The position numbers were made by a program, and so were the translations under genes. 50,482 nt of DNA. It comes from Candidatus Krumholzibacteriota bacterium. Its GTDB lineage: Bacteria; Krumholzibacteriota; Krumholzibacteriia; JAJRXK01. The notes under the pieces were generated by a model. It saw only the letters and a list, made by a program, of their open reading frames with translations. It was not told where the DNA came from and did no database searches. Positions 7,229-49,788 of the stretch are shown piece after piece (positions within the stretch are counted from its first letter, which is position 1; the number at the start of each line of letters is the position of its first letter). The stretch is from assembly GCA_024276305.1 (NCBI GenBank), contig JAJRXK010000008.1, positions 1 to 50,482 of the forward strand, in the 5' to 3' direction.

Positions 7229-7272
7229 GGTCGCCTCGACTACCACCGCCGCAGCAGAGTCGACAGGACGGC

Positions 7273-7289
7273 CCGAGGTGGTACCTCGG
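7273..7289. terminator. Hairpin between convergent genes
   Basis: CCGAGGT and ACCTCGG flank a three-base loop in the 119-base gap between the ABC-F gene and the convergent surface protein. It has no T-tract, so it is only a possible bidirectional terminator. Confidence 0.4.
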
Positions 7290-7347
7290 AGTCTGGAATG
7301 GATCCGCGGAGGGCTCACCCGCTCTTGCGCCTGCGTTCGCCGACGCC

Positions 7348-9804: not shown

Positions 9805-9866
9805 GGTCGATTCCTCCGTAGGGATGTCCATCTCCGTGTCCACCGAGGGGAATGGGCTATGGGAAT

Positions 9867-13010: not shown

Positions 13011-13651
13011 GGCGAAGTCCTCCCCTGTCCGCGACCGCTCGATTCTGCCGTGCGAATCGATTTTCCGAAGGAACTTGCGATAGTCTCTGCGACGTCTTGG
13101 GCCAGTAGCTCGAGGGAATCGACTCGTCCGATGCCGAAGATCTTTTCGTGGTCGTTCCCGCGTCGAGTAACGGTGACGGCCCACACGATGTCTCCGCTGC
13201 GGACATCGAGAACTCGAATCGTGATCGAGACGACCGGAATCTCTCCCGATCCACCCGCGGCAGTGATGCGTTGGAGGGCATATTCCTGGACCACTCCCTG
13301 CACCACGGCCCCGACGCCCAAGCGCGAACCCAGGTTTCGGAGAGATTCGCGAGAGATCGATGTGGCCAGGCGAATCCGTTCTTCCTGGAGAGCCTGGGAA
13401 ACCTCGCCAGGATTCACGAATCGCACTCGACTGTGTTTGAGGAGTTCGATGAGAACCATGTTCTCGATCGACTTCCCCGCCGACCGGGTCTCGGAGAGAT
13501 TGTCGAATGGCAGGACCGCGATTCCACCGGAAATGGTTCTGGCCACGGAAGGGCTGGCGTAGGGTCGAATCGCGAAGCGTCCACCGCAGCCGGCCAGGGA
13601 CAAGGTGGCGAAGATGAGGATCGCGATGGATGTGATTGGTATTCTCCGCAT
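13007..13651 (-). CDS. CsgG/GNA1162-like outer-membrane lipoprotein (second copy)
   Basis: This lipoprotein has 214 residues, with signal peptide MRRIPITSIAILIFATLSLAGC (Cys22). The body resembles the CsgG/GNA1162/FlgT-type fold: IAVLPFDNLSETRSAG near the N-terminus, then GVGAVVQGVVQEY, then RVLDVRSGDIVWAVTVTRRG, and a C-terminal amphipathic helix. The start at 13651 is preferred because AAGGAG is eight bases upstream and it gives a clean lipoprotein signal; alternatives at 13681/13684 lack this. CsgG itself forms the curli export pore, but this shorter protein may simply be a periplasmic scaffold. It shares its layout with the adjacent paralogue. Confidence 0.75.
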   Translation of the reverse strand: MRRIPITSIAILIFATLSLAGCGGRFAIRPYASPSVARTISGGIAVLPFDNLSETRSAGKSIENMVLIELLKHSRVRFVNPGEVSQALQEERIRLATSISRESLRNLGSRLGVGAVVQGVVQEYALQRITAAGGSGEIPVVSITIRVLDVRSGDIVWAVTVTRRGNDHEKIFGIGRVDSLELLAQDVAETIASSFGKSIRTAESSGRGQGRTSP

Positions 13652-13680
13652 GGGAGCTCTCCTTCGTGTTCGGCGTGCCA

Positions 13681-14283
13681 TCACAGACCCGATTCCCGGT
13701 AGAACGCGTGGACCGCGCGTTGGGCAACCTTCTGACTCAGTTCCCCCAGAACGTAAGACTCGCCGATACTGATCAGAGGTAGGTTGGGTCCTCCTCTTGC
13801 CGTCAGATTCGCTTGCCAGACCAGAGTGCCGGTGGCGACATCGATGAATTTCGTGGTCATCGACACCAGCGGATATTGCTCTCCGCCGATTTGGATCATC
13901 TTGAAATCGTGAACTACTCCCATGAAGATCCCCTGCACTCCCGCCAGTTCTCCGATTTCGCGGATCTCGGTCGGACTCAGACGTTGGCCCGAAACCGGCG
14001 CCGCGGATCGCGTCGCCTGAGCCACGAAGGCGCGGAATTGACCGGGATCCATGACGTGCAGTTTTCCTTCGCGAAGGACTTCGGTGACGAAATGCTCCGT
14101 CATCTTGTCTCCGGCCAACGGATCATCGGCTTGACTGTCGAAGGGGAAGACCGCGGTGTCCTCGTAGACCAGAAAGTCCGTCCGTGGATCGACGAAGCTT
14201 CGAACGTGCATGGGAGAGCACGATTCGAGGCCAATCGTGAGGCCGATAATCGACGTAATGAGAAGGATGGATGGGATCTTCAT
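13681..14283 (-). CDS. CsgG/GNA1162-like lipoprotein (first copy)
   Basis: This protein has 200 residues with an N-terminal signal and a probable lipidated Cys22 (GLTIGLESC; an imperfect lipobox). Motifs parallel the neighbouring paralogue: DTAVFPFDSQADDPLAGDKMTE, then GVQGIFMGVVHDFKM, then FIDVATGTLVWQANLTARGG and a C-terminal helix. Tandem CsgG-like lipoproteins between a beta-barrel gene and a giant cytochrome suggest an outer-membrane assembly or export function for cytochromes, which is inference. The gene starts 14 bases after the barrel stop. Confidence 0.72.
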   Translation of the reverse strand: MKIPSILLITSIIGLTIGLESCSPMHVRSFVDPRTDFLVYEDTAVFPFDSQADDPLAGDKMTEHFVTEVLREGKLHVMDPGQFRAFVAQATRSAAPVSGQRLSPTEIREIGELAGVQGIFMGVVHDFKMIQIGGEQYPLVSMTTKFIDVATGTLVWQANLTARGGPNLPLISIGESYVLGELSQKVAQRAVHAFYRESGL

Positions 14284-14297
14284 GGTATGCCTTGGGG

Positions 14298-16073
14298 CTA
14301 GAAGGTGTTGACGTATCGAGCGCGCCAAAAGCTGTCGGCGCGGGAGGAGAGCGGTTCGCGGACCGACCCGATGAGATCGAGTTGGCTTCCCCGGGGAAGC
14401 ATCAGAGACAGGGTGAGTGCGGCTTGACGTCCGCCGGATCCGGAGCTTCCGCGCGATCCATAGCTGAGGCTGAGTCGGTGGCGTCGGATGGTGGTCGTGT
14501 TCAGGGTTGCAGTCCACGAGCTGCGGCTGCTTCCGAAGGCCGAAGAGCTTCGCACACCCGTCATCGTGAATCCGGCGCGGCGAGTTGCCTGGTAGCTCAG
14601 TGACCCGCTCCAGGTCTGACTGGCGTCGCCTCCGAGGCGAAGCCGGTCAGCCTGGGTGTCGAGCGAATAGTGAAGCGAGAGCCGCGACTTCTGGGAAGGC
14701 ACGGCGTCGATCTGCAGTGTGAGAGAGTTTCGGTACTGTCGAACGGTGGGGATCTCCACGAAGACCCCTTCGCTCCAATCTGCGAAGGCGGCACTCCGTT
14801 TGGTGAACACCTGTCCCAGGTCTGTCGCGTAGTAGGTGAATCCGGCAAAGGAATCGTCGAAGGCATTGCGCCCCGTGAAGTCTCCAGCGCCGTCGTAACG
14901 GGCGGGATCGATGAATCCGGGTGAGGAGTTGTGGGTCGTGGACAGGTTGAGGTGAGCTCGCATTCTGGGCGAGACGTAGAGATCCGAGTTCAGGGCGCCG
15001 TAATCCCGTTGGTTCGTTCCTCGGCGAGGATCGCTTTCGGTGGTGTGCGAGGCCGACAGCGAGAACGAAGCACTGCGCGTCAACTCCGTGGTCCATGTCG
15101 ATCCCACGATGACGTAGTCTACGTCTCGTTGAGCGAAGTCGTCATCGAATCCACGGTTTCCGACCGTGGAGTAGAGGCGGGTCGACGGCCACGGATAGAG
15201 CGATCCGGTGAGATCGTAGTTGCGGGACCAATAGGTTCCTCCTGGTCCTTTTCGGGTTTCGGTTCTCTCGTCGAGGAGGCTGAAGTCGAGAAGCATCCAA
15301 GTGCGGGGACGACTCGTCAGACCGATCCTCATGGTGCGCAGGTCTCCGATGGTATCGAGGCGGTCCGATGTGCTGGTGGTGTGCCGATCGAGATCGATAG
15401 CTAGGTTCATCCTGGTGGTTCTGGCGATCGACCGCTGGTAGGTAGCTCCGACCCGGGTATTGTCCGAACTGCGTTCGTCAGTGACTCCTGGATTCTGAAC
15501 CTGTCGATAGTATCCGGCGTGTAAGTACAGAGGCCCCGCGGTGTGATCGATGGTGACCGTCCAGGTGTGGTTCCGCTGTTTGGAATGGGAGCTCAGGCTG
15601 GTTTCGTATTGGTTGAAGGTCGCGAAGAGGCGGGGCCAGTCGGATGGACCAATGCTCAGGGACACGCGCCGGGTACGATTGTTGATGAGTTGGCCCAGAG
15701 TCGTGAGGCTCGCGCTGCGCAACTGTTGAGCGTCAAGCTGAAACCCATCCCCTGCCACCCGGAAGCCCACGGTTCCCAGGGGATTGGTGTCGAATCGGGT
15801 GTCGCCGTTGGCGTCGAAGTAGCTGAGGCGCAGGTTCAGCCGCGTGTCGAGGAGGCGCTTGCGGGGTGGGCGCGCGGTGATTCCGAAGTAGGACTGAAGG
15901 AGATAGGTGCGGTCGATATTGTTGTCGGCTGCGGAGTATTCGCTGGTGAGATCTCCACTCCATCGAATCAACGCCGGGGATGGGACTGGGGTGACAAGGA
16001 GCAGGCATCCTGCGGCGGCTCCCAGCCACAGGCTTCCCCTCATCACCCCAGAGGTCGCGACGCGCTTCACCAC
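14298..16073 (-). CDS. Outer-membrane beta-barrel protein, porin-cytochrome conduit type
   Basis: This protein has 591 residues. It has a signal peptide (about 11-34) followed by alternating polar/hydrophobic strands rich in aromatic ends and Arg/Ser/Thr turns, and it ends in Phe (RARYVNTF), the usual outer-membrane insertion signal. It has no heme motif. Size and position among decaheme and giant cytochromes fit MtrB/OmbB-like barrels that sheath a cytochrome through the outer membrane, although I see no specific MtrB signature. The start is GTG at 16073, with GGAGGA seven bases upstream, and overlaps the preceding stop. The true TAG stop directly follows the terminal Phe. Confidence 0.8.
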   Translation of the reverse strand: MVKRVATSGVMRGSLWLGAAAGCLLLVTPVPSPALIRWSGDLTSEYSAADNNIDRTYLLQSYFGITARPPRKRLLDTRLNLRLSYFDANGDTRFDTNPLGTVGFRVAGDGFQLDAQQLRSASLTTLGQLINNRTRRVSLSIGPSDWPRLFATFNQYETSLSSHSKQRNHTWTVTIDHTAGPLYLHAGYYRQVQNPGVTDERSSDNTRVGATYQRSIARTTRMNLAIDLDRHTTSTSDRLDTIGDLRTMRIGLTSRPRTWMLLDFSLLDERTETRKGPGGTYWSRNYDLTGSLYPWPSTRLYSTVGNRGFDDDFAQRDVDYVIVGSTWTTELTRSASFSLSASHTTESDPRRGTNQRDYGALNSDLYVSPRMRAHLNLSTTHNSSPGFIDPARYDGAGDFTGRNAFDDSFAGFTYYATDLGQVFTKRSAAFADWSEGVFVEIPTVRQYRNSLTLQIDAVPSQKSRLSLHYSLDTQADRLRLGGDASQTWSGSLSYQATRRAGFTMTGVRSSSAFGSSRSSWTATLNTTTIRRHRLSLSYGSRGSSGSGGRQAALTLSLMLPRGSQLDLIGSVREPLSSRADSFWRARYVNTF

Positions 16074-17434
16074 GGATAGTTCCTCCGGTAGTTGCGAAGG
16101 TCGTGACAGCCAGATCGGCAGCTTCCGCCATCCACGGTTGGGGTGTATTGCAGGAGCTGTACGCCGCGTGATCCGACCAGCAGCGCGGGGAATTCGTCGG
16201 AGCCGTGAGAGTCATGACAGACGCGGCAGGAGAGGTGCTCTCGGCCAACATGGAGCGCGTGCCCTGCGATGGCCCCGGGTGGATTGAATCGACTGGCTGA
16301 GAGGTCCATGCCTGAAACCGCGGCGTAGGTCTCGTAGTTGTGGCACAGATAGCACAGCCCTTGGCGGTCGGTGACGTCGATCTCCTCATAGGGCCGTTTC
16401 AGCATGCCCGCGTAGACGGAGCCATGGGAACCACGCTCTTTCCCGTCATCGGAGGAGTGGCAATCCGAGCAGCGAAGAATCGTGGTCGCGTCGATGGATT
16501 CGACGAAGGCCTGCAGGGGAATCCGAGGGTTGTTTCCGACCGCTTCCACCGCGTGGTGCGAGGCATTGGCCGGATTCATCTTCCGCGCGATGTCGACTTG
16601 ACCGGGAGGAATCTGGGTCCAGGAGGAGTGACACTTGAAACAGATCTCGTATTCCCGGGTGGACGACGCGGTATCCGCGGCGGGAATGAAGCGGTAGGAA
16701 GGTACGCTGCCCGCGCCTCCATTCTTCACCCGGACTCGTGAGACGCCCCGGTTGGCTTCTGCCGCCTCGGGGGCAGGAGTCGCCATCGATCCTCCTCGCG
16801 CCACGTGGGCGTTGTGACAATCGCTGCAACTGACATGTCGCGACCTGCTGGAGTAGGAGTATCGGGAGGGGTCTCCGTCCTCTCCGGCCGAGTGGGAGGC
16901 GGATCGTCGCCGAGCAGAGTGGGAGTAGGGCTTGCGAAGGTCGGACGCGAGGTCATGGATCGACACACTGCCGTCGTGACAGCCCAGACAGAGTTCTTGG
17001 TCCGTTGTCGCCAGGAGGCTGGGAATCACTCCCCCTCGATTTCGCCGGGCGTGGGGATCGTGACAATTGGTGCATTTGCCCTGATCGCGGCTGAGATCCT
17101 TGGCCGGGGGGGTCGGTCCGGGCCAGATCACCCGAGAATCCACCGCATGGGCCGAGACCTGGTAGTCACTTCGTCCGGGGAAGAGGCCTCGTGCGCTGGG
17201 TACTTCGTGACAGGGCGTGCAACCGTCCTGGCGAAGGATCCCCGCCGAAGGGGCGGAAAGGACGGGTGAGTCGGAACTCTCGTCGTGGCACTCTCCGCAG
17301 GACCCTACGGTGAGCACGCTCGGGTCGGTTCCGGGTGCGGGCCAACCGTGGACGGAGGTGGGCTCACCGTCTGCCTCGGCGAACGATGAGCCGACAAGCA
17401 GGAGAGCAATCACCAGGGGAGTGGACTTCATCAT
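16067..17434 (-). CDS. Decaheme-type cytochrome c (nine CXXCH plus one CX3CH)
   Basis: This protein has 455 residues with a signal peptide (about 1-20). Heme motifs, in order, are CGECH, CTPCH, CTNCH, CLGCH, CSDCH, CFKCH, CSDCH, CYLCH, CRVCH and, 14 residues from the end, CRSGCH. The last has three residues between the cysteines, an uncommon heme-attachment variant. A decaheme cytochrome followed by a barrel gene with overlapping stop and start resembles MtrA/MtrB or PioA/PioB order, although the sequence is not obviously MtrA. It is probably periplasmic or lodged in the barrel, taking electrons across the outer membrane. The upstream gene ends seven bases before its start. Confidence 0.85.
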   Translation of the reverse strand: MMKSTPLVIALLLVGSSFAEADGEPTSVHGWPAPGTDPSVLTVGSCGECHDESSDSPVLSAPSAGILRQDGCTPCHEVPSARGLFPGRSDYQVSAHAVDSRVIWPGPTPPAKDLSRDQGKCTNCHDPHARRNRGGVIPSLLATTDQELCLGCHDGSVSIHDLASDLRKPYSHSARRRSASHSAGEDGDPSRYSYSSRSRHVSCSDCHNAHVARGGSMATPAPEAAEANRGVSRVRVKNGGAGSVPSYRFIPAADTASSTREYEICFKCHSSWTQIPPGQVDIARKMNPANASHHAVEAVGNNPRIPLQAFVESIDATTILRCSDCHSSDDGKERGSHGSVYAGMLKRPYEEIDVTDRQGLCYLCHNYETYAAVSGMDLSASRFNPPGAIAGHALHVGREHLSCRVCHDSHGSDEFPALLVGSRGVQLLQYTPTVDGGSCRSGCHDLRNYRRNYPW

Positions 17435-17441
17435 GCTTCGC

Positions 17442-18437
17442 TCAGTAGTTGTGGCATTGTTGGCACCCCGAATCGCGGTCGGCGGGCGAGCCGGGCCCCT
17501 CGTTGGGCCACACCAATCCGTGTTCGTAGGCGCTTCCGTGAGCCAGATGACAGGTCTCGCACATCACCTCGTTGTCGGCGGCCACCACCTGTGATGAGGG
17601 GTAGTCGACGGCGGTGGGCACTTGGAAACGCAGTCGAGGGATTCCCTCCACGTCGTCTCCGGTGCTGGTTCCGAACCCCGATCCGCTACCGGCCATCCAA
17701 TGGCCGGGATCGGTGGGATAGCCGGGCCCGGAGATGGGAACGTTCATCAAGTGGTGGCGCCGGTTGGTGGGAGTGTTCGACTCCGGACGCAATTCGTCGT
17801 GGCAGCTCGTGCACCAAAGGGAGGTCGAGGAACGATAGCCCACATTCGACTCCCGATAGGCCAATGCGGTGGCACCGACGGAGGGAGGATCACCGGGAGA
17901 GGAGTCGACGAAGGTGTCGCTGCCGGACCGAACGGGGTGGTCCGTGGGCCCCGCGGGGCGGTCCAGGATGTTCCGGTAGTTGTCGTTGCCATGCGGGTCG
18001 TGGCAGGAGGCACAGCTGAGGGTGATGTTGGTCAGCGAGCTGAAGGGGACTTCTGCTGCCAGGACTCCCAAGTCATGGCCGAAGTCATTCTTGGTTCCGA
18101 TCGACGCGGCGAAGAATCCTGCTCCGGAATGTTCATCGCCGGTGGCGTCGTAGATCGTCACCGGAGTGACGACGTCCGGAGCGGTCACATCTCCTCCGTC
18201 ATGGCAGAAGAGGCAGAGCCGGTTGGTGGTCGATCGAACCAGCAATCGGTCGAAGGGTCCTCCGGCGTCCGTACCCGCAGGCAGACCGCCGCCTTCCTCG
18301 TAGTGTTCGGTGTGACAGTCCGAGCAGGCTTGCCCTTGGGCCTGTCCGTGGTAGGTCTCGGCCGCGGCGAATGGGCCGGTGAGCCCCCATGCTGCGGTGG
18401 CGATGACGATCGCGGAGCCTCGGAGGGATCTAATCAC
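17442..18437 (-). CDS. Secreted hexaheme cytochrome c
   Basis: This protein has 331 residues: a signal peptide (about 1-26), then CSDCH at about 38, CLFCH, CASCH, CTSCH, CETCH and a final CQQCH three residues from the C-terminus (CQQCHNY). Heme spacing is uneven, with long linkers of 40-70 residues, unlike the dense giant cytochrome. Residues such as SCASCHDPHGNDNYRN and MCETCHLAHG carry the CHxxH arrangement that supplies distal His ligands. The start is GTG at 18437 with GGAGGGG upstream, and it overlaps the end of the NHL gene. It is part of the cluster A operon. Confidence 0.85.
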   Translation of the reverse strand: MIRSLRGSAIVIATAAWGLTGPFAAAETYHGQAQGQACSDCHTEHYEEGGGLPAGTDAGGPFDRLLVRSTTNRLCLFCHDGGDVTAPDVVTPVTIYDATGDEHSGAGFFAASIGTKNDFGHDLGVLAAEVPFSSLTNITLSCASCHDPHGNDNYRNILDRPAGPTDHPVRSGSDTFVDSSPGDPPSVGATALAYRESNVGYRSSTSLWCTSCHDELRPESNTPTNRRHHLMNVPISGPGYPTDPGHWMAGSGSGFGTSTGDDVEGIPRLRFQVPTAVDYPSSQVVAADNEVMCETCHLAHGSAYEHGLVWPNEGPGSPADRDSGCQQCHNY

Positions 18438-19386
18438 GGTTCCCCTCCGCAGGGTCGGGGAGGCGGAAGACCTGGATCCGATTCGCACCCTTTTCGAGGA
18501 CGTAGAGAGTTCCGTCGGAACTCAGGCAGAGATCGGCGGGGAGCAAGAAACCCCACTCCCCCTCGCCCCGGTCGAGGCGGCCGAAATCCATGAGGAATTC
18601 GCCGTCCTTCGCGAAGACCTGGACTCGGTGACGGAAGGAGTCGGTCAGCCAGATTCTTCCGGAAGAGTCCAGTCCGAAGCCACCGGGAAAGGAGACCCGG
18701 TCGGGGCTGTCGTCCCCGCGGCCCCCGACCAGGGAGAGCACCTTCCCCGATGGGCCGAATCGGCGGAGGGCAGCACCCCGGGCAGAGCTCACGAGATAGT
18801 CTCCGTCGGGAAGACGCATGGCTTTCTGGGGTCGACCCTCGGTCGGAATGACTTGTCGAATCTCGAAGGTGGGGCTCAGGACGAGGACTTCCTCTTCGGA
18901 CATGTCGATGATGCAGAGGACACCGTCATCATCGCAGGTGATCCGACCCGGGGCGACGGGGTGACCGCGGAGGGCAGAGAGATCGTGAGTCTCGATCCAC
19001 TGAGCTCGGAGGTCGAAGACCTTGACCAATCCTGTGGTCGACTCGGATACGTAGAGGTTACTCCTCGAATCCACGGCGACACCGTAGGGGCTGATCAACT
19101 CTTCGGTGGGTCCGATGCGACGAATCATGCGCCCTCCCTGGTCGAGGACGACCACCTCACTGCTTCCGGCGCAGCTCAGGTAAAGGAGGTGATTGCGGTC
19201 GTCGAGGGCGATGGAGACCGGTCCTTCCAGGAGCGCCCCGCTACCGTCGTTCCCCAGACTCCCGAGACGGACGACATCCGAGGGGGAGATCTTGTCTTGC
19301 AGCGCAGAGGTGGGCGACGGAGCGATCGACGCAAGGACGAGCAGCCCGGGTCCCAGGAGGAGTGAGAGAAGGAGCCGGCGGGTCAT
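18430..19386 (-). CDS. Secreted NHL-repeat six-bladed propeller protein
   Basis: This protein has 318 residues: a signal peptide (MTRRLLLSLLLGPGLLVLAS) and about six NHL-type blades. Examples are SPYGVAVDSRSNLYVSES, FPGGFGLDSSGRIWLTDSF and LPADLCLSSDGTLYVLEKG. It has no heme motif or catalytic residue. NHL propellers are protein-protein scaffolds. ATG and the previous stop overlap as ATGA, so it is translationally coupled to the upstream NHL gene. Two consecutive NHL genes before cytochromes suggest an assembly or anchoring role for them. The stop is TAG. Confidence 0.85.
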   Translation of the reverse strand: MTRRLLLSLLLGPGLLVLASIAPSPTSALQDKISPSDVVRLGSLGNDGSGALLEGPVSIALDDRNHLLYLSCAGSSEVVVLDQGGRMIRRIGPTEELISPYGVAVDSRSNLYVSESTTGLVKVFDLRAQWIETHDLSALRGHPVAPGRITCDDDGVLCIIDMSEEEVLVLSPTFEIRQVIPTEGRPQKAMRLPDGDYLVSSARGAALRRFGPSGKVLSLVGGRGDDSPDRVSFPGGFGLDSSGRIWLTDSFRHRVQVFAKDGEFLMDFGRLDRGEGEWGFLLPADLCLSSDGTLYVLEKGANRIQVFRLPDPAEGNRD

Positions 19387-20321
19387 GGCCGCCCCCAAGA
19401 TCCCGCGCGGGTTCCCGTCTCGCCGGGAACGAACACCGCGATTCTGCGGGCTCCTCGGTCCAGCACGTAGACTTCGTCTTGTGCTCCGATCTCGATGTCG
19501 ACCGCGTGAAGGAAGGCGTCGGGAGGGAGCGAGAGCAGCACTCGATCGGAGGGGTCGAGGACGGTGAGGGCGCCGGATTCCTCGATGACCCAAATCCGCC
19601 CGCGCCGGTCCGAAGCCATGGAAAGTGCGTACACCGGACTGCGGTATCGCTCGGGGCGGACTCCGAGTCGGCGCTGGATTCGCCCTTCGAGGTCCGCGAC
19701 GATGATGCCCCCGACCCGAGCGTTGGCCACCAGGATTCCATTGGATCCAGTCCGTAGTCGAGTGGCAAACCCCAGGTGTTCCCAGCTCTGAAGAAACTCA
19801 CCGGTCTGCGAGTAGGTGCTGACCCCTCGGTGGTGGGCGTCCACGACGAAGAGGCGACCGTCGGGGGCCAGGCTGAGGGACCGCGGCGCGTCCGTTCCTT
19901 TCCGGTGGAGCGGATCTCCCGGGCCAAGGCTGATGATTCGCGAAGAGACCGCGGTGTCGGAGTCATAGTCAGGAATGATGACGATGGAGTCGGAGTTCTC
20001 GCCAGCCACGAAGAGATCTCCTTTCTCCGAGACCGCGAGGGCCACTGGTGAGGCGAAGGCAGTGTCGAAACGGTGAATGCATCGGAGTTCTCCGGACCGT
20101 TCGATCACCACCACTTGGGATCGTCCCGCGTCCAGCACCAGGAATCGATCTCGAAATCTGTCGTAACGGAAGGAAACGGGATCGCTGATCTCGAATCCCG
20201 CGGCATCGAGCTCCACCGATCCGCTGGGAGTGATCGCCAGTGCGGTGAGGCCATCCGCGTCGATGAGCATGAGCAGGCCCAGGGTCATGGCGGTGGAGAA
20301 GATGACGTGGCGGCGCTTCAT
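19383..20321 (-). CDS. Secreted NHL/beta-propeller protein
   Basis: This protein has 312 residues with a signal peptide (about 1-30; MKRRHVIFSTAMTLGLLMLI). Propeller blades have the motifs SPVALAVSEKGDLFVAGEN, APRSLSLAPDGRLFVVDAH and YALSMASDRRGRIWVIEES, and the C-terminal blade contains DEVYVLDRGARRIAVF. It is a scaffold-type protein without metal or heme motifs. The start overlaps the stop of the TolB-like gene (ATGA) and its stop overlaps the next start, showing tight coupling within the operon. It is paralogous in style, not closely in sequence, to the following NHL gene. Confidence 0.83.
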   Translation of the reverse strand: MKRRHVIFSTAMTLGLLMLIDADGLTALAITPSGSVELDAAGFEISDPVSFRYDRFRDRFLVLDAGRSQVVVIERSGELRCIHRFDTAFASPVALAVSEKGDLFVAGENSDSIVIIPDYDSDTAVSSRIISLGPGDPLHRKGTDAPRSLSLAPDGRLFVVDAHHRGVSTYSQTGEFLQSWEHLGFATRLRTGSNGILVANARVGGIIVADLEGRIQRRLGVRPERYRSPVYALSMASDRRGRIWVIEESGALTVLDPSDRVLLSLPPDAFLHAVDIEIGAQDEVYVLDRGARRIAVFVPGETGTRAGSWGRP

Positions 20322-22519
20322 CGCTGGGTGTGCCTCCCGATCGTCGAAGCATCGTTTGATTTCGCAGGTCGTGGTAGAAGCGCGTGGTCGTTTCGCCCAT
20401 CGCTGTCCATCAAGCGAAGGGTCTCCTGGTTTGCCTCCAGCGAGGTGTAGACGATCATGTCTTCGTCGGGCAGCAGGTTGGGAAAGACCGCTCCGTTCTG
20501 GGTGAGCCAACGCAACCTGCCTCGGTCGACCGAGATCGAAGCAAGGTTCGGCATTCCGTCCCGCGATGCGGTGATGATGATCCTCTCGTCGTAGAGGTCG
20601 AAGAATGGGGGTGAGGTGTAGTCCTCTTGGTGGGACTGAAAGGTAGTGGTGATGGGCTCTCGGAAGAGACGCTTCGGATGCGAACCGTCGACCCCGACGA
20701 TCCACAGCTCTCGAATGGTCTCGTCCTTGCGGTAGGTCGTCGTGGTGTAGCAGATTCGATCGCCGCGTCGGGACCAGACCGGATGAGAAGCGAAGACGGC
20801 CTCGTCCGCCGATGCCAGATTGCGTTCGTCGAAGTCAGTGATCCAACGTCGGCCAGTGCCATCGGAATGCATCACCCAGATGTCTACGCGGTCGCTGAAC
20901 GCGATCTCTCGTCCGTCGGTGGAGTAGGACGGTTGAAGATAGACCTCTACGCCGAGCTCTCCCTCGGGGGGAAAGCGCAGGTCTCGCTGGACCAGGATCC
21001 CATCGACGAGCTCGAGTTCATAGAGTCCGGGCAGCTCCCCGTAGCGAGGAACGGCATCGAGAAGCAATTTGTCCGAGGTCAATGAGGGGCTGAGGTAGAG
21101 AATCTTGCGATGAGAGTCGGCGTTGGGCCATGCGATCGACCCGGAGTCCGCGAAGGCCGCCATTCCGTCTCCCCAGCTCACGATCAGGGCCTCGCTGTCC
21201 GGCAACCACGAGAGCCGGGTACCGGGAGGGGGGATCGCTCCGGGAAAAGCACGGACGGGATTCCCGGAGAGATCACAGACCCGGATCTCGTCGCCGCCAC
21301 GGTCGTCGGTGAGATAGGCGATGCTGCGGGAGTCTCGCGAAGGGGCTGGCCCCCACCAGGAAGGAGAGCTCACCGTCCATTGGTCGAGGGTCCGGGTCTC
21401 GAGATCGAGACGATAGAGTTCGGAGGCGTAGCTGCGTGGCCTGACGGCCTCGAGAAGAAGTGCGCTCCCGTCGGGAGAGATGGAGAAGTGCGCCACATGC
21501 AGCCCCTCCGGAGACACTCTGGACTCAGTGCCCGTGGAAATGTCCAGGCTCCACACCGCGACTTCGCCGGTCCGGCTGACCCGCGGGGCCTCGTCGGACG
21601 CGTGCAATTCCTCGGGACGGTTCTCGGGGGTCGAGGCTGAGCTGTGGCCGAGGTCCTGACCGAGATAGAAGAGGGAGTTCATGGATTCGTCCCAGACCAC
21701 CCATTTCTCGGTCATGCGAGGTGAGGACAGAACTTGTTCTTCTTCACCGGTGAGGGAGATGATGTGGAGTTCGAAGACACCAGGGTGAATGGGATAGGCG
21801 AAGGCGATATGTTGCCCGTCGGGAGACAGAGCGGGAGTGCCGACGTACTTGTTCACGAGGTTCCGGCTTTGCATGGCCGCGAGATCGAGCATCCAGATGC
21901 CGACCCCGTAGGCCTTGCCCGCTTCGAAGTAGAGGCGGCGGCTCTCGGTGCCCCAGAAGAAACTGCGGACATTCAGAAGCTCGGTCACCATCTCCACCCG
22001 GGAACGGTCCCAGGTCCCGACCCACAGGGCCTGGATCTTCTGGCTGTCCGGAGCGGTGAAGGCGAAGAGCTGTCCGTCGGGGGAAACGCGCGGCAAGGAT
22101 GCGCCGGGCGGAAGTCCGGGCACCCGTTCTTCGATGCCGCTCGCGAGGTCGACCTCGAAGATCTCTGAGAAGCGTCTGCGGGTCGTGGCCACGACGATGG
22201 AACTGGAGTCAGGGGACCAGTCCACGGCGTCGACGCCGCCGGTGGTGAGTCGGTGTGGTCTCTTTCCGTCGACGGTCATCACCCACAGGTCGGGAGCGGT
22301 ATGGGGAGTGGAGCTCAAGAATGCGATCTGTGATCCGTCGGGAGACCACACCGCGCTCCAACCCCCATTCGGAGATCGATCCTGGCCTTTCGAGGGAGAG
22401 CGGCCGGCAAGGGAGGGCCCGGCGACCAAGAGCAGCACCATGGCTATCGTGGCCGGAATCCCTGGGCCGAGGCTTCGGAGTCGACGGGGAGGCGGCGTTC
22501 GACGGGCGGCATGATTCAT
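20318..22519 (-). CDS. TolB-like WD40/PD40 beta-propeller protein
   Basis: This protein has 733 residues with an N-terminal signal segment (about 20-38). It has at least eight PD40 blades with the SPDGxxIAF core, such as AVWSPDGSQIAFLS, ALSPDGQHIAFAY and YSTDGREIAFSD. That is enough for two propellers. No peptidase triad or heme site is seen. Related TolB and tricorn-type propellers bind proteins in the periplasm. It lies 193 bases after the OmcS-like gene, behind a hairpin, and is coupled by overlapping stop/start to the next NHL gene. GAGGGA lies upstream of the ATG at 22519. Confidence 0.82.
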   Translation of the reverse strand: MNHAARRTPPPRRLRSLGPGIPATIAMVLLLVAGPSLAGRSPSKGQDRSPNGGWSAVWSPDGSQIAFLSSTPHTAPDLWVMTVDGKRPHRLTTGGVDAVDWSPDSSSIVVATTRRRFSEIFEVDLASGIEERVPGLPPGASLPRVSPDGQLFAFTAPDSQKIQALWVGTWDRSRVEMVTELLNVRSFFWGTESRRLYFEAGKAYGVGIWMLDLAAMQSRNLVNKYVGTPALSPDGQHIAFAYPIHPGVFELHIISLTGEEEQVLSSPRMTEKWVVWDESMNSLFYLGQDLGHSSASTPENRPEELHASDEAPRVSRTGEVAVWSLDISTGTESRVSPEGLHVAHFSISPDGSALLLEAVRPRSYASELYRLDLETRTLDQWTVSSPSWWGPAPSRDSRSIAYLTDDRGGDEIRVCDLSGNPVRAFPGAIPPPGTRLSWLPDSEALIVSWGDGMAAFADSGSIAWPNADSHRKILYLSPSLTSDKLLLDAVPRYGELPGLYELELVDGILVQRDLRFPPEGELGVEVYLQPSYSTDGREIAFSDRVDIWVMHSDGTGRRWITDFDERNLASADEAVFASHPVWSRRGDRICYTTTTYRKDETIRELWIVGVDGSHPKRLFREPITTTFQSHQEDYTSPPFFDLYDERIIITASRDGMPNLASISVDRGRLRWLTQNGAVFPNLLPDEDMIVYTSLEANQETLRLMDSDGRNDHALLPRPAKSNDASTIGRHTQR

Positions 22520-22665
22520 CGTTCGATCCCTCGCGCTTCGGGAGAACCGAAGCCCACGGTCACCGTGAGCACCGGTCCGGGTACCGGGGAGAGGATGGAC
22601 GGATGACCTGGGCAAGACCTCGACCGAGCTGGGCATCGTGTGCACGCGAGACCCGTGGGGCCGTA

Positions 22666-22690
22666 GGCGGAGGAGCGATGCCCCTCCGCC
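22666..22690 (-). terminator. Hairpin just downstream of the OmcS-like gene
   Basis: GGCGGAGG (22666-22673) and CCTCCGCC (22683-22690) form an 8-bp perfect stem with a 9-base loop. There is no T-tract on the minus strand. It may act as an attenuator or 3'-end stabiliser separating a strongly expressed first gene from the rest of the operon. Confidence 0.5.
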
Positions 22691-22711
22691 CTCGTGCGGT
22701 AGCTCGCAGGA

Positions 22712-24064
22712 TCAGAAGGACTTGACGAAGGCTACCGCACCACCCTTCTGGTGACACTTGCCACAGCCATAGGCTGGGTTGTCGCCGTTCGACGGGACGC
22801 CATTCATGTCATCCGCGCCATTCTGGAGGAAGGCATGGCCCTGGGCATCCCAGCGGGTCATGTTGTCGTACTGGGTTGCATGAGCCTTGTGGCAGGTGAG
22901 GCAACTCAGACGATCGTCGCCGATCGCGGTGAGAGGATCGGTCATCGCCGCCGCGGTCACCGAGACCGTGAAGTCGTCGTCGGGTTGGATCAGCGGGTAG
23001 CGCCAATCGTATCCCACGGGATTCGGATTGGTGCTCTGAGCATTGGTGACCTGCTTGGTGTAGGTGCCGATGCCGTACTTGCTGCCGGCCTCGTTCATCT
23101 TGATGTTCGTCGGATGACGCAGCCACGCACCACCGATGCGGGTGTTGGTGTTGTTGACGGTGCGGGTCTCACCGTTGCCGCCATGGAAATCACCGTGGCA
23201 AGCGGAGCAGAAGGAGGAGAATCCACCACGATAGACGTTCTTGTTGACGTCGCTCTCGGTTTGGAAGAGATCCGCTCCTTCGAGGGGATTGCCATCAGGC
23301 CGAACGTTGAGGTAGTTCGTGCCGATCACATCGCCACGAGAGTTGGACTTGATCGGCTCGAACCCAGCTTCGGTCGCGCCTTTGTTGCCGGTCGCGGTCT
23401 CTACGCCGAATCCGGTGACATCGCCGCTGACGACATGACCGTTCACCTTGCGTTTGACCTGACGCCATGCGGTGTAGCTACTGCTGAACCGGGAGTGCAT
23501 TCCGTGGCACGAATGGCAGGACCACTCGGTCGTCCCGTCGAGGATTCCCCCGGGAGGGTTGTCGCCGAGGACCGGATCTGCCTGCATGAAGAGCGAGGTA
23601 GCAGTACCGCTTCCAACGGCTCCTTCGGTGTAGGCAGGATTGTGGCCCTTCTTCGGATCGAGGTTCGAGTAGTAGAAATCTCCTGAGGGCATCGCCGTAT
23701 TCGCAGGAACTACGCCATCGAGAGTCATCACGATGGGCGCAGTCCATCCGGTATTGGCTACGCTCGGGAGAGCCGCGGTCGCGGAGGTGTTCTGTCCCTG
23801 CTTGTGGCAGGAGAGACAGAGGTCGGTGAAGTCGCCGCGATACAGGAGCGCCTGGTAGGGTCCGTTGGCGCCCGAGTATGCGTAGCTGACGGCCGCGCCG
23901 TCTTCACTGTTGTGGATGGTATGGCAGTCCGCGCAGATCAGACCATCGTAGGAATGATAGAGCTGCGTATTGACGCCAGTGTTGGGGTCCTGTGAAGGAG
24001 CCGCCCCGAACGCAATGGATGCGCTCGCGACGAGGATCAGTAGACCCAGCAGAACAGATTTCAT
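22712..24064 (-). CDS. Secreted hexaheme cytochrome c, OmcS-like (putative nanowire subunit)
   Basis: This protein has 450 residues with signal peptide MKSVLLGLLILVASASIAFG. Six CXXCH motifs lie at about 44, 83, 183, 286, 388 and 434. The order, spacing and neighbours match what I remember of Geobacter sulfurreducens OmcS (432 residues, six hemes): CADCHTIHN first, a KGHN motif at 139-142, CSACHGDFHG then a WLRHP motif, CLTCHKAHATQYDNMTRW, and CGKCHQK near the C-terminus. OmcS polymerises into extracellular filaments with a continuous heme stack. Polymerisation here is inference. It is the first gene of cluster A. The start at 24064 has GGAG spaced seven bases upstream, and there is a hairpin after the gene. 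Confidence 0.85.
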   Translation of the reverse strand: MKSVLLGLLILVASASIAFGAAPSQDPNTGVNTQLYHSYDGLICADCHTIHNSEDGAAVSYAYSGANGPYQALLYRGDFTDLCLSCHKQGQNTSATAALPSVANTGWTAPIVMTLDGVVPANTAMPSGDFYYSNLDPKKGHNPAYTEGAVGSGTATSLFMQADPVLGDNPPGGILDGTTEWSCHSCHGMHSRFSSSYTAWRQVKRKVNGHVVSGDVTGFGVETATGNKGATEAGFEPIKSNSRGDVIGTNYLNVRPDGNPLEGADLFQTESDVNKNVYRGGFSSFCSACHGDFHGGNGETRTVNNTNTRIGGAWLRHPTNIKMNEAGSKYGIGTYTKQVTNAQSTNPNPVGYDWRYPLIQPDDDFTVSVTAAAMTDPLTAIGDDRLSCLTCHKAHATQYDNMTRWDAQGHAFLQNGADDMNGVPSNGDNPAYGCGKCHQKGGAVAFVKSF

Positions 24065-24598
24065 CTCCGTACTCCATGATAGAAGTGTAGGGTTCTGGTT
24101 TCTCGCTGGGACCGATTGCACCGTTCGGATGTGCGCCGGGAAAGACCGTTGAGTTCGTGTGAGTTCTGAGTTCCTCGGCACGGCCATGGTCTCCTTGATC
24201 GTCCTTCTGGCACGAAGGGTCTCGCGAACACAACTGACGCTAACTCTGAGTTCCGGTGCGCAAAAACCCCTGAAAACGTGATGATAAGGTCTGCGGCAAG
24301 GTGAATATTCACTAGGACTTAGACTTGTCTACTGGCACGGAAGAACCGCGACGTTTTTCAAGAAATGTGGAAGGAAGCGACCAGGCGTGCCAACTGTTCT
24401 GAACAGATCACAAGACAGCACAACACCGATGTCGAGCTCGTCACACAATCGCCGGTTGTGCCCGCCAATCGAAGGACTCTACCCTCTTTCCAGTGGTCAT
24501 TCGTCCTCGAAGACGCATCGCCTTCGAAGATTCGGCGTTCCAATGATTTCGAGTCAATCATGATTGCAGAAAACCGAAGATGTCGACGACTGGGGATC
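24065..24598. promoter_or_regulatory. Divergent 534-base control region between the OmcS-like and NHL genes
   Basis: This is a gene-free, relatively AT-rich stretch between divergent genes and presumably holds both promoters. It contains a perfect palindrome GTGAATATTCAC (24301-24312) and an inverted repeat CTGTTC-T-GAACAG (24394-24406). No GEMM (cyclic-di-GMP) riboswitch core and no correctly spaced sigma-54 element were found. I see no convincing gene in it. Confidence 0.5.
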
Positions 24599-25594
24599 AT
24601 GGTTCGTTTCTTGGTGCTTTGGGTTCTAGTCTTGGTTGCAACCGAAACTCTCGCGGCCACCGGAAAACGCGGCGAACGTATGAACGTGCGCTTTCTCTTT
24701 TCCATTGAAGGCGTGGGTGGTCGCGGAAACAGATTGAGATCGCCACGCGATCTGTTCTTCGATCGAAAGTCTGGAGAGCTGTATATCGCAGACGCGGGCC
24801 TGGCCGCGATCCTGGTTTTCAACCGGGAGGGGACGTTTCTTCAGAACATTCCGGCACGAGGCCCGGAGGGAGTCCCGATGCTTGTGGCGACCGACGACGA
24901 AGGGCGCATCTATGTCGGGCACAATCGCAGTGCAAGAATCTCGATCTTCGATTATCGCGGTGAGCTCTTCGACGTTCTCGAACTGCCGGGGACGGTTGAT
25001 CTTCCCGGAAGCACCGTACGACCTTTCCTGTTGACCCGTGCATCGAATGGTCGCGTCGTCGCGATGAAGACTCGTGGCGGTTTGGTGGAAGTGGATCCCT
25101 ACGGCGAGACATCAAGAGAGATTCCTCTGGCCTTGCCCGATGGGCCTGCGGTGGTGCAGGGCATGACCTGCGATCTTCGTGGGAACTACTACTTCACGGA
25201 CATGCGGCCGGCCTCGATCGTTCGATGGAACCAGGACGAAGGAAGCGTTCTTCGCTTCGGCAAAGCCGGAGTGATCTATGGCCAACTCTCCCGGCCTCAG
25301 GGCGTCGCGGTGGATTCGACCGGCCACGTCTTCGTCACCAGTCTCATCCGCAACAACGTGCTCTGTTATGACGAGCGGGGAGACTTTGTGGAAGAGTTCG
25401 GGAGCATTGGGCGCGAGTACGGTCACTTCTACATGCCGACCAGAATCGTGTCCGACGGAAGTGCACGACTCTATGTCCTCGAGGAGGCGCTGCGACGGGT
25501 ACAGGTCTTCGAGGTGTCGTTTCCTGAGGAGTCGGTGAAGAGTCCGCGCCTCGGTCCGGCATCGACCGACGCCGAATCTACACTCGGTCGATGA
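24599..25594 (+). CDS. Secreted NHL-repeat propeller protein, divergent from the OmcS-like gene
   Basis: This protein has about 331 residues with signal peptide MVRFLVLWVLVLVATETLAA. About six NHL blades follow: SPRDLFFDRKSGELYIADAG, VPMLVATDDEGRIYVGHN, RPQGVAVDSTGHVFVTSL and MPTRIVSDGSARLYVLEEA. It has no heme motif. The start is taken at ATG 24599 because it opens directly into a signal peptide and has GGGGA upstream; ATG 24560 in the same frame is possible. In Geobacter, as I recall, an NHL-repeat gene lies beside omcS, and the same pairing here supports a filament-assembly or anchoring role. Its 3' end overlaps the convergent heme O synthase gene by 17 bases. Confidence 0.8.
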   Translation: MVRFLVLWVLVLVATETLAATGKRGERMNVRFLFSIEGVGGRGNRLRSPRDLFFDRKSGELYIADAGLAAILVFNREGTFLQNIPARGPEGVPMLVATDDEGRIYVGHNRSARISIFDYRGELFDVLELPGTVDLPGSTVRPFLLTRASNGRVVAMKTRGGLVEVDPYGETSREIPLALPDGPAVVQGMTCDLRGNYYFTDMRPASIVRWNQDEGSVLRFGKAGVIYGQLSRPQGVAVDSTGHVFVTSLIRNNVLCYDERGDFVEEFGSIGREYGHFYMPTRIVSDGSARLYVLEEALRRVQVFEVSFPEESVKSPRLGPASTDAESTLGR

Positions 25595-26966: not shown

Positions 26967-27397
26967 CTCGACTCCCTCTTCCTTCAGGGTTGTCGTGGAA
27001 TCGTGCGCGCCTGGCCCTCTGGACTTCGCAGGGGGAGAACCCGCGGGGAGGCGCCGCCTTCTGGGAAATGGTATGGACCAGATCCGAGGCGGATGCAAGC
27101 GCGGATCGACTCCGAGCGGCCCAGGGAGCGGCGGCCGTGGTGGTGGAAGGGATCCGCGCTGGTGGGGGCTTCGGTCGGCAGGGGTCTGCAGTTCCTTTCG
27201 AGGGCGGGGCCTTCCCCAGAGTATCCGAGGGGCGGAGGCGAGTCGGTGGGAGGCGGGTCTCTCCGCGCCGGATCGGCCAATTGTGATACAATCAGCGAAG
27301 CACCGTCCTCCGGTGCGCTCTACCGATCCGGAGATCGGCGTCTCGACTCGGGCGCCGGTCGTCCGACGGTCCCTTGCCCGAGGAAGACTCTTCCGTG
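26967..27397. promoter_or_regulatory. Divergent 431-base intergenic region with an extended -10 element
   Basis: This is gene-free between the ferredoxin and the pentaheme surface protein. TGATACAAT (27284-27292) is a good extended -10 (TGnTACAAT) pointing toward the cytochrome, about 100 bases before its ATG. The same bases form an inverted repeat ATTGT-GAT-ACAAT (27280-27292), so a regulator could sit on the promoter. The rest is G-rich with nothing recognised. Confidence 0.45.
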
Positions 27398-30337
27398 ATG
27401 AATTCGGTGTCTCGTACTGCTGCCACGCTCGGCTGCGTGGTTCTCCTGGGAATCGTGAGTGGGTCGGCCCCTGCTTTCGCACAGATCGTTCTGCCGGGGA
27501 CTCAGCCCAATGAACTCCAGAACTGGCCCCTGAAAAGGCCGTCGGAATGCCGGACCTGCCACGGAGACTATGTCTTCGGACGCGATTACGAGCCCTTCGA
27601 TTCCTGGTCGGGAACGATGATGGCCAATGCGGGCCGCGACCCCCTGTTCTGGGCAGCGGTGGACATCGCGAACCAGGATTCTCCCGGAGTGGGAGAACTC
27701 TGCATCCGCTGTCATAGTCCGCGAGGGTGGCTCGAGGGCCGCAGCTCGGTGGCCGATGGGAGCGCGCTCATCGGCTATCCCGACGAGATCGACAACGATT
27801 TCGATGGAGTCGAATGTCATTTCTGCCACCGCATGTACGAGGGTCCCACCGGGACGCCATTTCAACAGAATGGTCAGTATTGGATCGACGATGGCACGCC
27901 GACCCAGGAACCGCCGCGGCGCGGGCCCTTCCAGAACGCCTTTGCCCCGCATCCCTGGCAGTATTCGACCTACACCACCTCGAGTGAATTCTGTGGAACC
28001 TGCCACGATCTCAAGAGCCCCCTGGTCAAGCTCCTCGACGAGAACGGGGCGAACACGGGTTTGGATTTTCCCGAGCAGCTGACCTACACCGAGTGGGCGA
28101 ACAGCGCGTTCGCCACCGAGGGAACCAGCTGCCAGGATTGCCACATGCCCGCTCCCTCGGTCACTCCGGCCTACGCCTGCGACTCCTTCAATCCTCCTCG
28201 ACCTGATGTGGCGGGAGGCGATCCCGAGCCGGTTTCTCGGCACGACCTGACCGGCGCGAACACCTTCATTCCCCGGGTCCTCGATGGAGAATACGGAGCA
28301 CTTCTGGGTCGCAGTGCGGCCTACCAGGCGACCATCGCTCGCGCGATCGACATGTTGCAGACCAAGTCCGCGACCCTGGTGATGACTCCGCCAACCTGGG
28401 CGGTGGAGTCGGACACCATGCAGATCGATTTGAGGGTGACCAATCTGACCGGGCACAAGCTTCCGACCGGTTATCCCGAGGGAAGGCGGATGTGGATCGA
28501 AGTGGTGGCGACCGATGCTCTCGGCACTCCCTTCTTCAGTTCTGGACTCTACGACACCACGACTGCCACCTTGGTTTCGGATGCTCAACTGCGGACCTAC
28601 AAGACCGAGCACGGAGTCGAGGGGGAGGGGACGGGATTCCATCTGGTGCGGAACAACCGCATCTTCTCCGACACCCGGATTCCCCCCAGAGGGTTTCGCC
28701 CGGTTCCCGGGAGTGAGCCGGTGGGGCGCGTCTATCCCCCCCAGCCCGACAGCACCCTGGCGTATTGGGACGACGTGAGCTACCGGATCCCGGTTCCGGC
28801 GGGAGTGCAGGGACCGGTCAACGTCAGCGCTCGACTCTTCTATCAGACCTCCTCGCGCGACTACATCGAGTTCCTGCGCGACCAGAATGTGAGTGGACCG
28901 GATCCCAAGGATCGCAACTATCCCCTGGCTCCGAGTCGGGGCCAGAAGATCTACGACCTCTGGGCCCAGTACGGGCGCAGTGAGCCCGTGGAGATGGTCA
29001 ACGACGCCGCGACCATTGCGGTCACCCAGGCGCCACCCAATGTCAGCAGCCTCGGTGCGGCGCACGGACACAATCGCGTGGTGCTGAGCTGGCAGCTTCC
29101 ACCGGCGGCGGTGGGGGTCAAGATCCTGCGGGCCGATTGGCTCGACTATCCCGAATTCGGAAGTACCGGAGGGGGAGGAGCGACCATGCCGGTGCCCCTG
29201 GATCGCCTCGGGGATGCCCTGGCGGCGGGATGGACCGAGGTCTACGACGGGAGTGCGGCTTCGTTCACGGATTCGGTCTTCACCAACGCGGGGCGCACCG
29301 TGGCGACCTATGCGGCGTATGCCTACGACGCCAATGGAATCTTCGCGCGGACGACCCCTCAGAGTCAGGCCCGAGCCACCAGCTACGAGCTGGGCGATCT
29401 GGGCCAAGTGGGAATGAGCCAGGCCTACGATGGCAAGGTCGATGGGGCCCAGGACCTCCCCAAATTCAGTTTGGCGTACGGGACTCTGGAGGGAGAAGCT
29501 GGATTCGATGCCGAGGTGGACATCGCTCCGACGGACGATGGAAGTCGCAGCGGCCTTCCCCAACCCGATGATCGCATCGATTTCCAGGACTTGGTGCTCT
29601 TCGCTCAACAATTCGGAGTCGGCACTCCTCAGGCCAAGTCTGGGCCGGGTTCCCCTCCGATCGAGCGGGGACCGGTGGTCCTTCGAGTGCGCGCGCCCCG
29701 ATTCGATGGACAGAAAACCGAAGTGGACATCGAAGTCCTCCGGGGCGGTCGAGGTCTGCGCGCCCTTCACCTGCACTTCGATCTGCCGTCGGATCGATCG
29801 CTGGTCGCGGTGCGCGCCGGCGCAGCACTGCCATCCAGCGCCTTCTTCGCTCCCTCGCGAAGGGGGGCTTCGGACGCGGTGGATCTGGCGGTGCTCGGAC
29901 CCCAGGCGACCATCGCTTCGACGGGAACGATCTTGCGCTTGGTGTTCCGAGGCTCGCTCCCCGCACTGGTGGTCGACGAAGTCGATGCTCGGGGAGTGGA
30001 CGGCGCGAGGCTCGACGTCTCAGTCGAAGGAGGAGCAGTGCCGGGGTTGGGCTCGAGGGCCAGACTCGAACTCTCGGAGAGCGTTCCCAATCCCTTCAAT
30101 CCGCGGACTCGGGTCGACTTGCATCTGCGCGAGGACAGCCGAGTGCAGGCGGCGATCTACGACGTGGCCGGAAGGCGAATCACGGTTCTGGTCGATGGAG
30201 AACTGTCGGCCGGTACGCATCCGCTGGTGTGGACGGGAATCGACGACCGAGGAGGCGCGGTCGCGAGCGGGGTCTACATCCTTCGCGTGATGGCCGAAGG
30301 CGAATCGGCGACCCGCCGCATGGTGCTCGTCCGATGA
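27398..30337 (+). CDS. Secreted pentaheme cytochrome with dockerin-like and FlgD-like domains
   Basis: This protein has 979 residues with a signal peptide ending APAFAQ. The cytochrome head spans about 30-260, with five CXXCH motifs at about 51, 102, 140, 199 and 245; it resembles the cytochrome c554/c-prime family (SECRTCHGDY, LCIRCHSPRGW, VECHFCHRMY). A beta-sandwich region (about 330-560), a fibronectin-like part and a dockerin-like segment (about 664-745) follow. The last has two Asp/Asn loops, YDGKVDGAQD and DDGSRSGLPQPDDRIDFQD. The final part is a FlgD-like Ig sorting domain (about 890-979). It is probably displayed outside the cell. The start ATG 27398 has GAGGAAG upstream. The next gene starts 11 bases later. 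Confidence 0.83.
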   Translation: MNSVSRTAATLGCVVLLGIVSGSAPAFAQIVLPGTQPNELQNWPLKRPSECRTCHGDYVFGRDYEPFDSWSGTMMANAGRDPLFWAAVDIANQDSPGVGELCIRCHSPRGWLEGRSSVADGSALIGYPDEIDNDFDGVECHFCHRMYEGPTGTPFQQNGQYWIDDGTPTQEPPRRGPFQNAFAPHPWQYSTYTTSSEFCGTCHDLKSPLVKLLDENGANTGLDFPEQLTYTEWANSAFATEGTSCQDCHMPAPSVTPAYACDSFNPPRPDVAGGDPEPVSRHDLTGANTFIPRVLDGEYGALLGRSAAYQATIARAIDMLQTKSATLVMTPPTWAVESDTMQIDLRVTNLTGHKLPTGYPEGRRMWIEVVATDALGTPFFSSGLYDTTTATLVSDAQLRTYKTEHGVEGEGTGFHLVRNNRIFSDTRIPPRGFRPVPGSEPVGRVYPPQPDSTLAYWDDVSYRIPVPAGVQGPVNVSARLFYQTSSRDYIEFLRDQNVSGPDPKDRNYPLAPSRGQKIYDLWAQYGRSEPVEMVNDAATIAVTQAPPNVSSLGAAHGHNRVVLSWQLPPAAVGVKILRADWLDYPEFGSTGGGGATMPVPLDRLGDALAAGWTEVYDGSAASFTDSVFTNAGRTVATYAAYAYDANGIFARTTPQSQARATSYELGDLGQVGMSQAYDGKVDGAQDLPKFSLAYGTLEGEAGFDAEVDIAPTDDGSRSGLPQPDDRIDFQDLVLFAQQFGVGTPQAKSGPGSPPIERGPVVLRVRAPRFDGQKTEVDIEVLRGGRGLRALHLHFDLPSDRSLVAVRAGAALPSSAFFAPSRRGASDAVDLAVLGPQATIASTGTILRLVFRGSLPALVVDEVDARGVDGARLDVSVEGGAVPGLGSRARLELSESVPNPFNPRTRVDLHLREDSRVQAAIYDVAGRRITVLVDGELSAGTHPLVWTGIDDRGGAVASGVYILRVMAEGESATRRMVLVR

Positions 30338-42189: not shown

Positions 42190-42204
42190 ATCTTCCAGAT
42201 CTAC
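42186..42204 (+). terminator. Perfect hairpin at the stop of the first tetraheme gene
   Basis: GTAGATCT (42186-42193) and AGATCTAC (42197-42204) form an 8-bp stem with a TCC loop that includes the TAG stop. There is no T-tract, so it is an attenuator or mRNA 3'-end protection candidate. Confidence 0.45.
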
Positions 42205-42325
42205 GAATTGCCCTCTGGGTGCGCCGCTCTGGCTTCCGATTTGCTCGGACCAGAGCGGCTGCATTTTGGCCACCGGTCGTTTGGATCGGTACTAACGCAT
42301 GGTGCGCCAACCCCGAGGGAAGAGA

Positions 42326-43033: not shown

Positions 43034-43051
43034 GAAGCCGTGAGGGTCTCA

Positions 43052-43106: not shown

Positions 43107-43135
43107 CACTCCCCAGACTCCCCCAAGGTGTGGCC

Positions 43136-44386: not shown

Positions 44387-44415
44387 GCGACCTTCCGATC
44401 TCGAGGACTTGCAGC

Positions 44416-48016: not shown

Positions 48017-48050
48017 TGAAGGAGCCGGGGGGAATACCGAAGGTAGAGGT

Positions 48051-49787: not shown

Positions 49788-49788
49788 G

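Follow-up and report, generated by a model that had tools for sequence, protein, structure and literature searches.

The functions of the osc (omcS-companion) gene products of Geobacter sulfurreducens were reportedly described by Shen et al. in 2025. In two papers citing that work, folding is attributed to OscH, secretion to OscE, OscF and OscG, and morphology to OscD (PMC13194489, PMC12977616). In OmcS itself, 11 of the 12 axial heme ligands are intra-subunit, and one, on heme 505, comes from the neighbouring subunit (PMC6584659). Further, an uncharacterised OmcS-like extracellular cytochrome, viz. DA_402 of Desulfurivibrio alkaliphilus, has been described in a sister clade of OmcS (PMC12545173). 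Our literature search found no paper joining Krumholzibacteriota with OmcS, and none in which OmcS nanowires are brought together with both Nitrospirota and horizontal transfer.

The window, by which is meant the whole stretch of DNA that was analysed (50,482 nucleotides from a Candidatus Krumholzibacteriota genome), contains at positions 22712-24064 a gene for a 450-aa protein with exactly six CxxCH motifs, which a first-pass annotation made from the sequence alone had described as an OmcS-like nanowire cytochrome. The coordinates given there are correct, and the gene lies on the minus strand, running from its ATG at 24064 to its stop at 22712; the plus-strand reading of this interval is broken by stops. 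An export-type signal sequence, MKSVLLGLLILVASASIAFG, is recognised by eye at the N-terminus of the product. The six heme motifs and the KGHN, LRHP and CLTCHKAHATQYDNMTRW segments, to which that annotation had drawn attention, are present in this protein and align with OmcS. The gene and its companions are as follows.

24365-25594 (+): NHL propeller, divergent in the window
22712-24064 (-): OmcS-like hexaheme c-type cytochrome, candidate nanowire subunit (450 aa)
20318-22519 (-): TolB/PD40-type beta-propeller, about 733 aa if read from ATG 22519, with the frame open as far as 22645; Pfam PD40 2e-14
19383-20321 (-): NHL-repeat propeller a; Pfam NHL, conserved in the cassettes
18430-19386 (-): NHL-repeat propeller b; Pfam NHL 4e-18, conserved in the cassettes
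17442-18437 (-): second hexaheme cytochrome (hexaheme-2), in a clade of its own; the only PDB matches of its profile are to OmcS
16067-17431 (-): 9-heme c-type cytochrome
14298-16043 (-): putative outer-membrane beta-barrel (about 581 aa), no Pfam family
13681-14283 (-): lipoprotein with the lipobox LESC, a homologue of the CsgG/LpoB-like protein that occupies the OscF position in canonical clusters
13007-13684 (-): second CsgG/LpoB-like lipoprotein (lipobox LAGC), at the OscG position; Pfam CsgG 4e-4, LpoB 5e-4
9867-13010 (-): giant cytochrome with 42 CxxCH, corresponding to the canonical 26-heme OscI and 16-heme OscJ joined together

Neighbouring genes of the cassette mostly touch or share a few bases in an operon-like manner, and the operon of propellers, barrel and other cytochromes to which the hexaheme gene had been assigned is borne out by the genes at 9867-24064 on the minus strand. 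Hexaheme-2 could be the counterpart of OscC, an OmcS-like protein of Geobacter. The giant cytochrome is divided by an in-frame TAA at 11069-11067 (-) into parts with 25 and 17 hemes, and in six relatives the same protein is a single 42-heme ORF with K, E or R at this position. The TAA is either a real nonsense change or an assembly error, and thus the conduit of this strain may be broken, or the assembly may be wrong at this point. Two other genes of the window carry FlgD-type domains. One of them, at 7348-9897 (-), encodes an 849-aa DUF5122/Rax2-like propeller with a FlgD Ig domain. This gene is part of the block that the congener lacks (see below), yet tblastn with its protein did not match any of the related cassettes, and it may therefore have been added locally. 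The other, at 27374-30337 (+), has a product of 987 aa in which five CxxCH motifs are combined with a FlgD-type Ig domain at the C-terminus, apparently a cytochrome on a surface-anchoring module.

In a phmmer search of PDB, OmcS (6EF8/6NEF) was the sole match at E <= 1 (E = 1e-10, residues 37-407), and the profile of the subfamily found OmcS at 3e-19; the OmcS reference sequence used in this work matched 6EF8 at 407 of 407 residues. When the subfamily and canonical OmcS-like profiles were compared with each other, the probability was 100%, with an E value of 1e-48 over 327 columns. A likeness limited to the CxxCH motifs is not what the comparison of the two proteins revealed, as with all of these motifs masked in both of them the local score was 94, which tops all 500 shuffles of the remaining residues (41.8 +/- 6.3, maximum 74), and with the hemes kept in place it was 237, compared to 72.6 +/- 14.8 (maximum 145) in the shuffles. 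Masked OmcS showed no significant match to the subfamily profile (E 2.5), indicating that the profile signal owes much to the heme motifs in their conserved context. The homology to OmcS, which had earlier been judged by eye, is upheld by the sole PDB match, the full-length profile alignment and the masked score above the shuffles. To judge from these comparisons, the window hexaheme is a true homologue of OmcS and a member of the OmcS-type hexaheme cytochrome superfamily. Matches of the protein to the GSU2203/DmsE decaheme and MtrC domain families (NCBIfam, Pfam) were far under the cut-offs or covered short CxxCH stretches only, and these identities were rejected.

The scan of 84,980 species genomes led to 78 loci. 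Twelve of them, from nine genomes of Nitrospirota, several deltaproteobacterial lineages and Geobacteraceae, encode proteins that are 51-75% identical to the query, and in the other OmcS-like loci this identity falls to 24-30%; among the cassettes compared, the identity to the window hexaheme is 64-76%. In a maximum-likelihood tree, the query is found in its own 13-row clade (support 100/100) on a long stem (1.27 changes per site), where its closest relative comes from the deltaproteobacterial genome OFTM73 (98/91). OmcS of G. sulfurreducens sits apart from this clade in another one (100/97), and the OmcS-like proteins of other Krumholzibacteriota also lie inside the OmcS clade and outside that of the query. 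By its placement in this tree, the window hexaheme is a homologue, but not an orthologue, of OmcS (GSU2504).

Kinship places the host in the little-studied phylum Krumholzibacteriota, and hence outside Desulfobacterota, as had been suspected. However, it will be incorrect to regard an OmcS-like gene as unusual for this reason, as the first-pass annotation did, because canonical genes of this kind were found in Nitrospirota, Calditrichota, Gemmatimonadota, Fibrobacterota, Zixibacteria, Acidobacteriota, Myxococcota and other Krumholzibacteriota; the novelty of such genes outside Geobacter per se is thereby refuted. The subfamily of the window hexaheme was found in only one of the 80 Krumholzibacteriota genomes examined, viz. 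the window's own, and when 346, 277 and 331 genomes were sampled from the groups to which three of the relatives belong, each sample contained one carrier, namely the relative itself. The subfamily is thus not typical of Krumholzibacteriota and it is shared with Nitrospirota and deltaproteobacterial genomes. The hexaheme is present in three tandem copies in a Nitrospiraceae locus (L091, 1471-5955) and in four copies, partial or complete, in a Geobacteraceae genome (G062), and these copies recall the omcS/omcT duplication. Many OmcS-like proteins of the loci L017-L048, from Desulfobulbales and Thermodesulfovibrio-type genomes, contain only five CxxCH motifs.

The gene order of the relatives, as determined by tblastn, is OmcS-like, TolB-type propeller, two NHL proteins, hexaheme-2, 9-heme cytochrome, barrel, two lipoproteins and 42-heme cytochrome, with an extra NHL gene at either end depending on the relative. 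This order of companion genes is kept in six related cassettes, the comparison covering those copies whose surroundings were readable. The counterpart of the NHL propeller at 24365-25594 adjoins the OmcS-like gene in most of the relatives and it is homologous to the NHL protein found beside the hexaheme in canonical loci; orthologues of the TolB/PD40 propeller also occur in the new-type cassettes. Two canonical loci, L056 (Calditrichota) and L078 (Anaeromyxobacter), contain an NHL protein, a hexaheme, a YncE-type propeller, a barrel, a CsgG/LpoB lipoprotein, a CsgG/GNA1162 protein, a PPIase and a 26-heme cytochrome, with a further multiheme protein in L056. The window-type lipoprotein and NHL profiles have strong matches in canonical loci (E of 1e-15 to 5e-25 for the LESC lipoprotein and about 1e-36 for the LAGC lipoprotein), and no such match to these loci was found with the TolB and barrel profiles, the sequence conservation of the putative barrel being limited to the new-type cassettes. 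The complete giant cytochromes of canonical loci have mostly 26 or 16 hemes, with 42 in about four, and 26 and 16 add up to the 42 of the window type. A PPIase is present in 41 of the 66 canonical loci, whereas neither the window nor any of the new-type loci yielded a PPIase (OscH). The cassette represents a variant of the osc assembly cluster already known, one that lacks the prolyl isomerase. The proposal that this is a distinct lineage with its own assembly genes therefore stands with respect to the separate clade and the companion genes, but not as an independent invention, as the companions are a variant of osc. In one respect the finding is stronger than was first thought, since a whole conserved cassette accompanies the gene.

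The block at 7229-25577 is missing at the equivalent site in a genome of the same genus (G001), where only serB is present between ABC-F and cyoE in place of the 18.3 kb of the window. The order of genes in this congener (sulfatase, phosphoglycerate mutase, ABC-F, cyoE) matches the window contig on both sides of the block. A search for serB elsewhere in the window's own genome, carried out without a positive control, did not find it. Because the congener has only serB at this site and the subfamily is so rare in the phylum (1 of 80), horizontal gain of the block of about ten genes is likely and the simplest reading; that the congener lost the block, and with it much of the phylum, is a less probable course. 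The ABC-F gene has its best match in the same genus (55%), the next being 37% in the family, and this kinship, the congener gene order and the even GC along the window contig make assembly contamination unlikely.

A second nanowire-type locus, OmcE-like, is present in the window at 41284-50482 (+). It begins with two tetraheme cytochromes (41284-42189 and 42299-43033) that match PDB 9yuq at E = 1e-14 and 2e-11, respectively, the second of them also matching OmcE (7tfs) at E = 6e-5, and these are followed by an NHL lipoprotein, a 5-heme cytochrome, a barrel-like protein, an NHL protein, an 11-heme and a 7-heme cytochrome. Relatives of the tetraheme proteins are found in 7 other Krumholzibacteriota genomes.

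The histidine counterparts were read from the multi-row alignment, as heme 3 was three residues off in the MAFFT pair alignment. The proximal histidines of the window protein are H48, H87, H187, H290, H392 and H438, and seven further histidines, viz. H37, H51, H141, H190, H294, H317 and H395, correspond to H2, H16, H110, H147, H247, H257 and H335 of OmcS, so that all conserved histidines of OmcS (six proximal and seven further) have counterparts here. The OmcS ligand reaching the heme of the neighbour is presumably His16, to which His51 of the window protein corresponds. A histidine of the next subunit is used in OmcE filaments too. The position of His51 is kept in 91% of the clade and in 100% of the other OmcS-like rows examined, and due to its conservation in other OmcS-like proteins as well, it agrees with polymerisation without being diagnostic of it. 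One member of the subfamily (L011, 10001-11272) lacks the histidine of CxxCHTxHN, at the OmcS His16 position, and the loop following it; this copy may not polymerise. AlphaFold monomers from two alignments (38 and 18 rows) had pLDDT values of 49.7 (pTM 0.57) and 38.9 (pTM 0.35), too low for ligands or interface to be read, and a Foldseek search with the pLDDT 49.7 model gave no match. These models being unusable, polymerisation of the window hexaheme is something that we infer, and likewise its export, its conduction and the role of each companion. In a comparison of ten cassette proteins, the hexaheme was also the best conserved (mean pairwise identity of 69% versus 42-64%), as expected for a subunit that interacts with itself.

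Based on the kinship with OmcS, the kept histidines, the ordered companions, the osc-homologous parts and the conservation of the hexaheme, we consider it probable that this gene encodes an OmcS-type nanowire subunit, that its companions build and feed the filament, and that the cassette is a horizontally spread variant of osc. The hexaheme would then be exported and loaded with six bis-histidine hemes, and its subunits would polymerise head to tail, with His51 ligating the heme of the neighbour to give a continuous heme stack. Electrons would be carried across the periplasm by the 42-heme and 9-heme cytochromes, the barrel and the two CsgG-like lipoproteins would form the outer-membrane passage, and the propellers could aid in folding, secretion or shaping of the filament, with hexaheme-2 perhaps serving as its cap, base or adaptor.

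It is also conceivable, but rather unlikely, that the protein, as a hexaheme of the OmcS superfamily, is secreted or placed on the surface without forming polymers (in this like OmcT, OmcJ or OscC) and acts as terminal reductase or shuttle of a barrel-cytochrome conduit. Other OmcS paralogues of G. sulfurreducens are not known to form wires (PMC12977616), the query clade is separate from OmcS, and the cassette is without the PPIase seen in most canonical loci; however, full-length homology and all conserved ligand positions are retained, CsgG-like secretion proteins and propellers are retained alongside, and the subunit is the best conserved protein of the cassette. The roles of the two hexahemes could in principle be reversed, with hexaheme-2 as the filament subunit and the first hexaheme as accessory, as hexaheme-2 is conserved in all six cassettes covering it (with a mean pairwise identity of 64%) and OmcS was the only PDB match of its profile. 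However, hexaheme-2 is the shorter protein (about 306 aa counted from its first heme region), its match to OmcS is weaker (7e-9 versus 3e-19) and the duplications in L091 and G062 concern the first hexaheme, which makes such a reversal very improbable. We give equally little credence to the cassette being a binning artefact or a non-functional relic. The absence of the subfamily from the 79 other genomes of the phylum and the in-frame stop in the 42-heme gene would fit this, but the block is flanked by an ABC-F gene with its best match in the same genus and by sulfatase, phosphoglycerate mutase and cyoE in the congener order, GC is even along the contig, and the other ORFs of the cassette are intact.

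Taken further, the preferred reading of an OmcS-type wire suggests, tentatively and with somewhat less than even confidence, a distinct nanowire lineage, i.e. a self-contained PPIase-free cassette with a 42-heme feed line that moves between phyla and gives this member of Krumholzibacteriota long-range electron transfer beside its OmcE-like system. If filaments do form, they would represent a biological electrical wire of a separate kind that is open to transfer. The subfamily bears upon how cytochrome filaments are assembled and which relatives of OmcS make wires. If transfer of the whole cassette is true, bacteria can acquire the capacity for nanowires in modular form, and this bears on the prediction of extracellular electron transfer from genomes. 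Further, surface cytochromes in Geobacter are reported to diverge fast (PMC12977616), whereas this subunit is unusually well conserved across phyla.

Among the known cytochrome filaments, OmcE (7TFS), OmcZ (8D9M) and the archaeal ones differ in their heme counts, and no similarity to the window hexaheme was detectable for them in the PDB search; with its six hemes and no match to 7TFS, this protein falls outside the OmcE-type tetraheme class. DA_402 has six aligned hemes like the window protein, and its polymerisation has been proposed from prediction (PMC12545173). With OmcS (6EF8, 6NEF), the window protein shares six CxxCH motifs in equal order, all conserved histidines, the six-heme size class and the blocks CxxCHxxHNS, KGHN, WC/FCxxCH, RHP and CLxCHxAHA..MTRW/F, at an identity of about 27-32%. 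However, the C-terminus (AFVKxF) is different, the histidines at 184 and 410 are specific for the query clade, and the long loop of OmcS before heme 6 is absent. The beta-propeller, outer-membrane channel-type proteins and giant multiheme cytochrome beside a hexaheme, by which an osc cluster is recognised, are all present in the window cassette. In the osc cluster (GSU2501-2493 region of G. sulfurreducens; L056, L078), as in the cassette, there are hexaheme(s), propellers, a barrel, two CsgG/LpoB-like proteins and the giant 26- and 16-heme cytochromes. However, in the cassette the latter two are joined into one of 42 hemes, the barrel is without detectable sequence similarity, OscH is lacking, and a TolB/PD40 propeller, extra NHL proteins, a 9-heme cytochrome and hexaheme-2 are added. 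The assembly set of this subfamily, differing from osc in its missing PPIase, extra propellers and 42-heme fusion, thus offers a natural comparison, and the system is a variant of a known one that is shared with deltaproteobacterial and Nitrospirota genomes and is not peculiar to the phylum.
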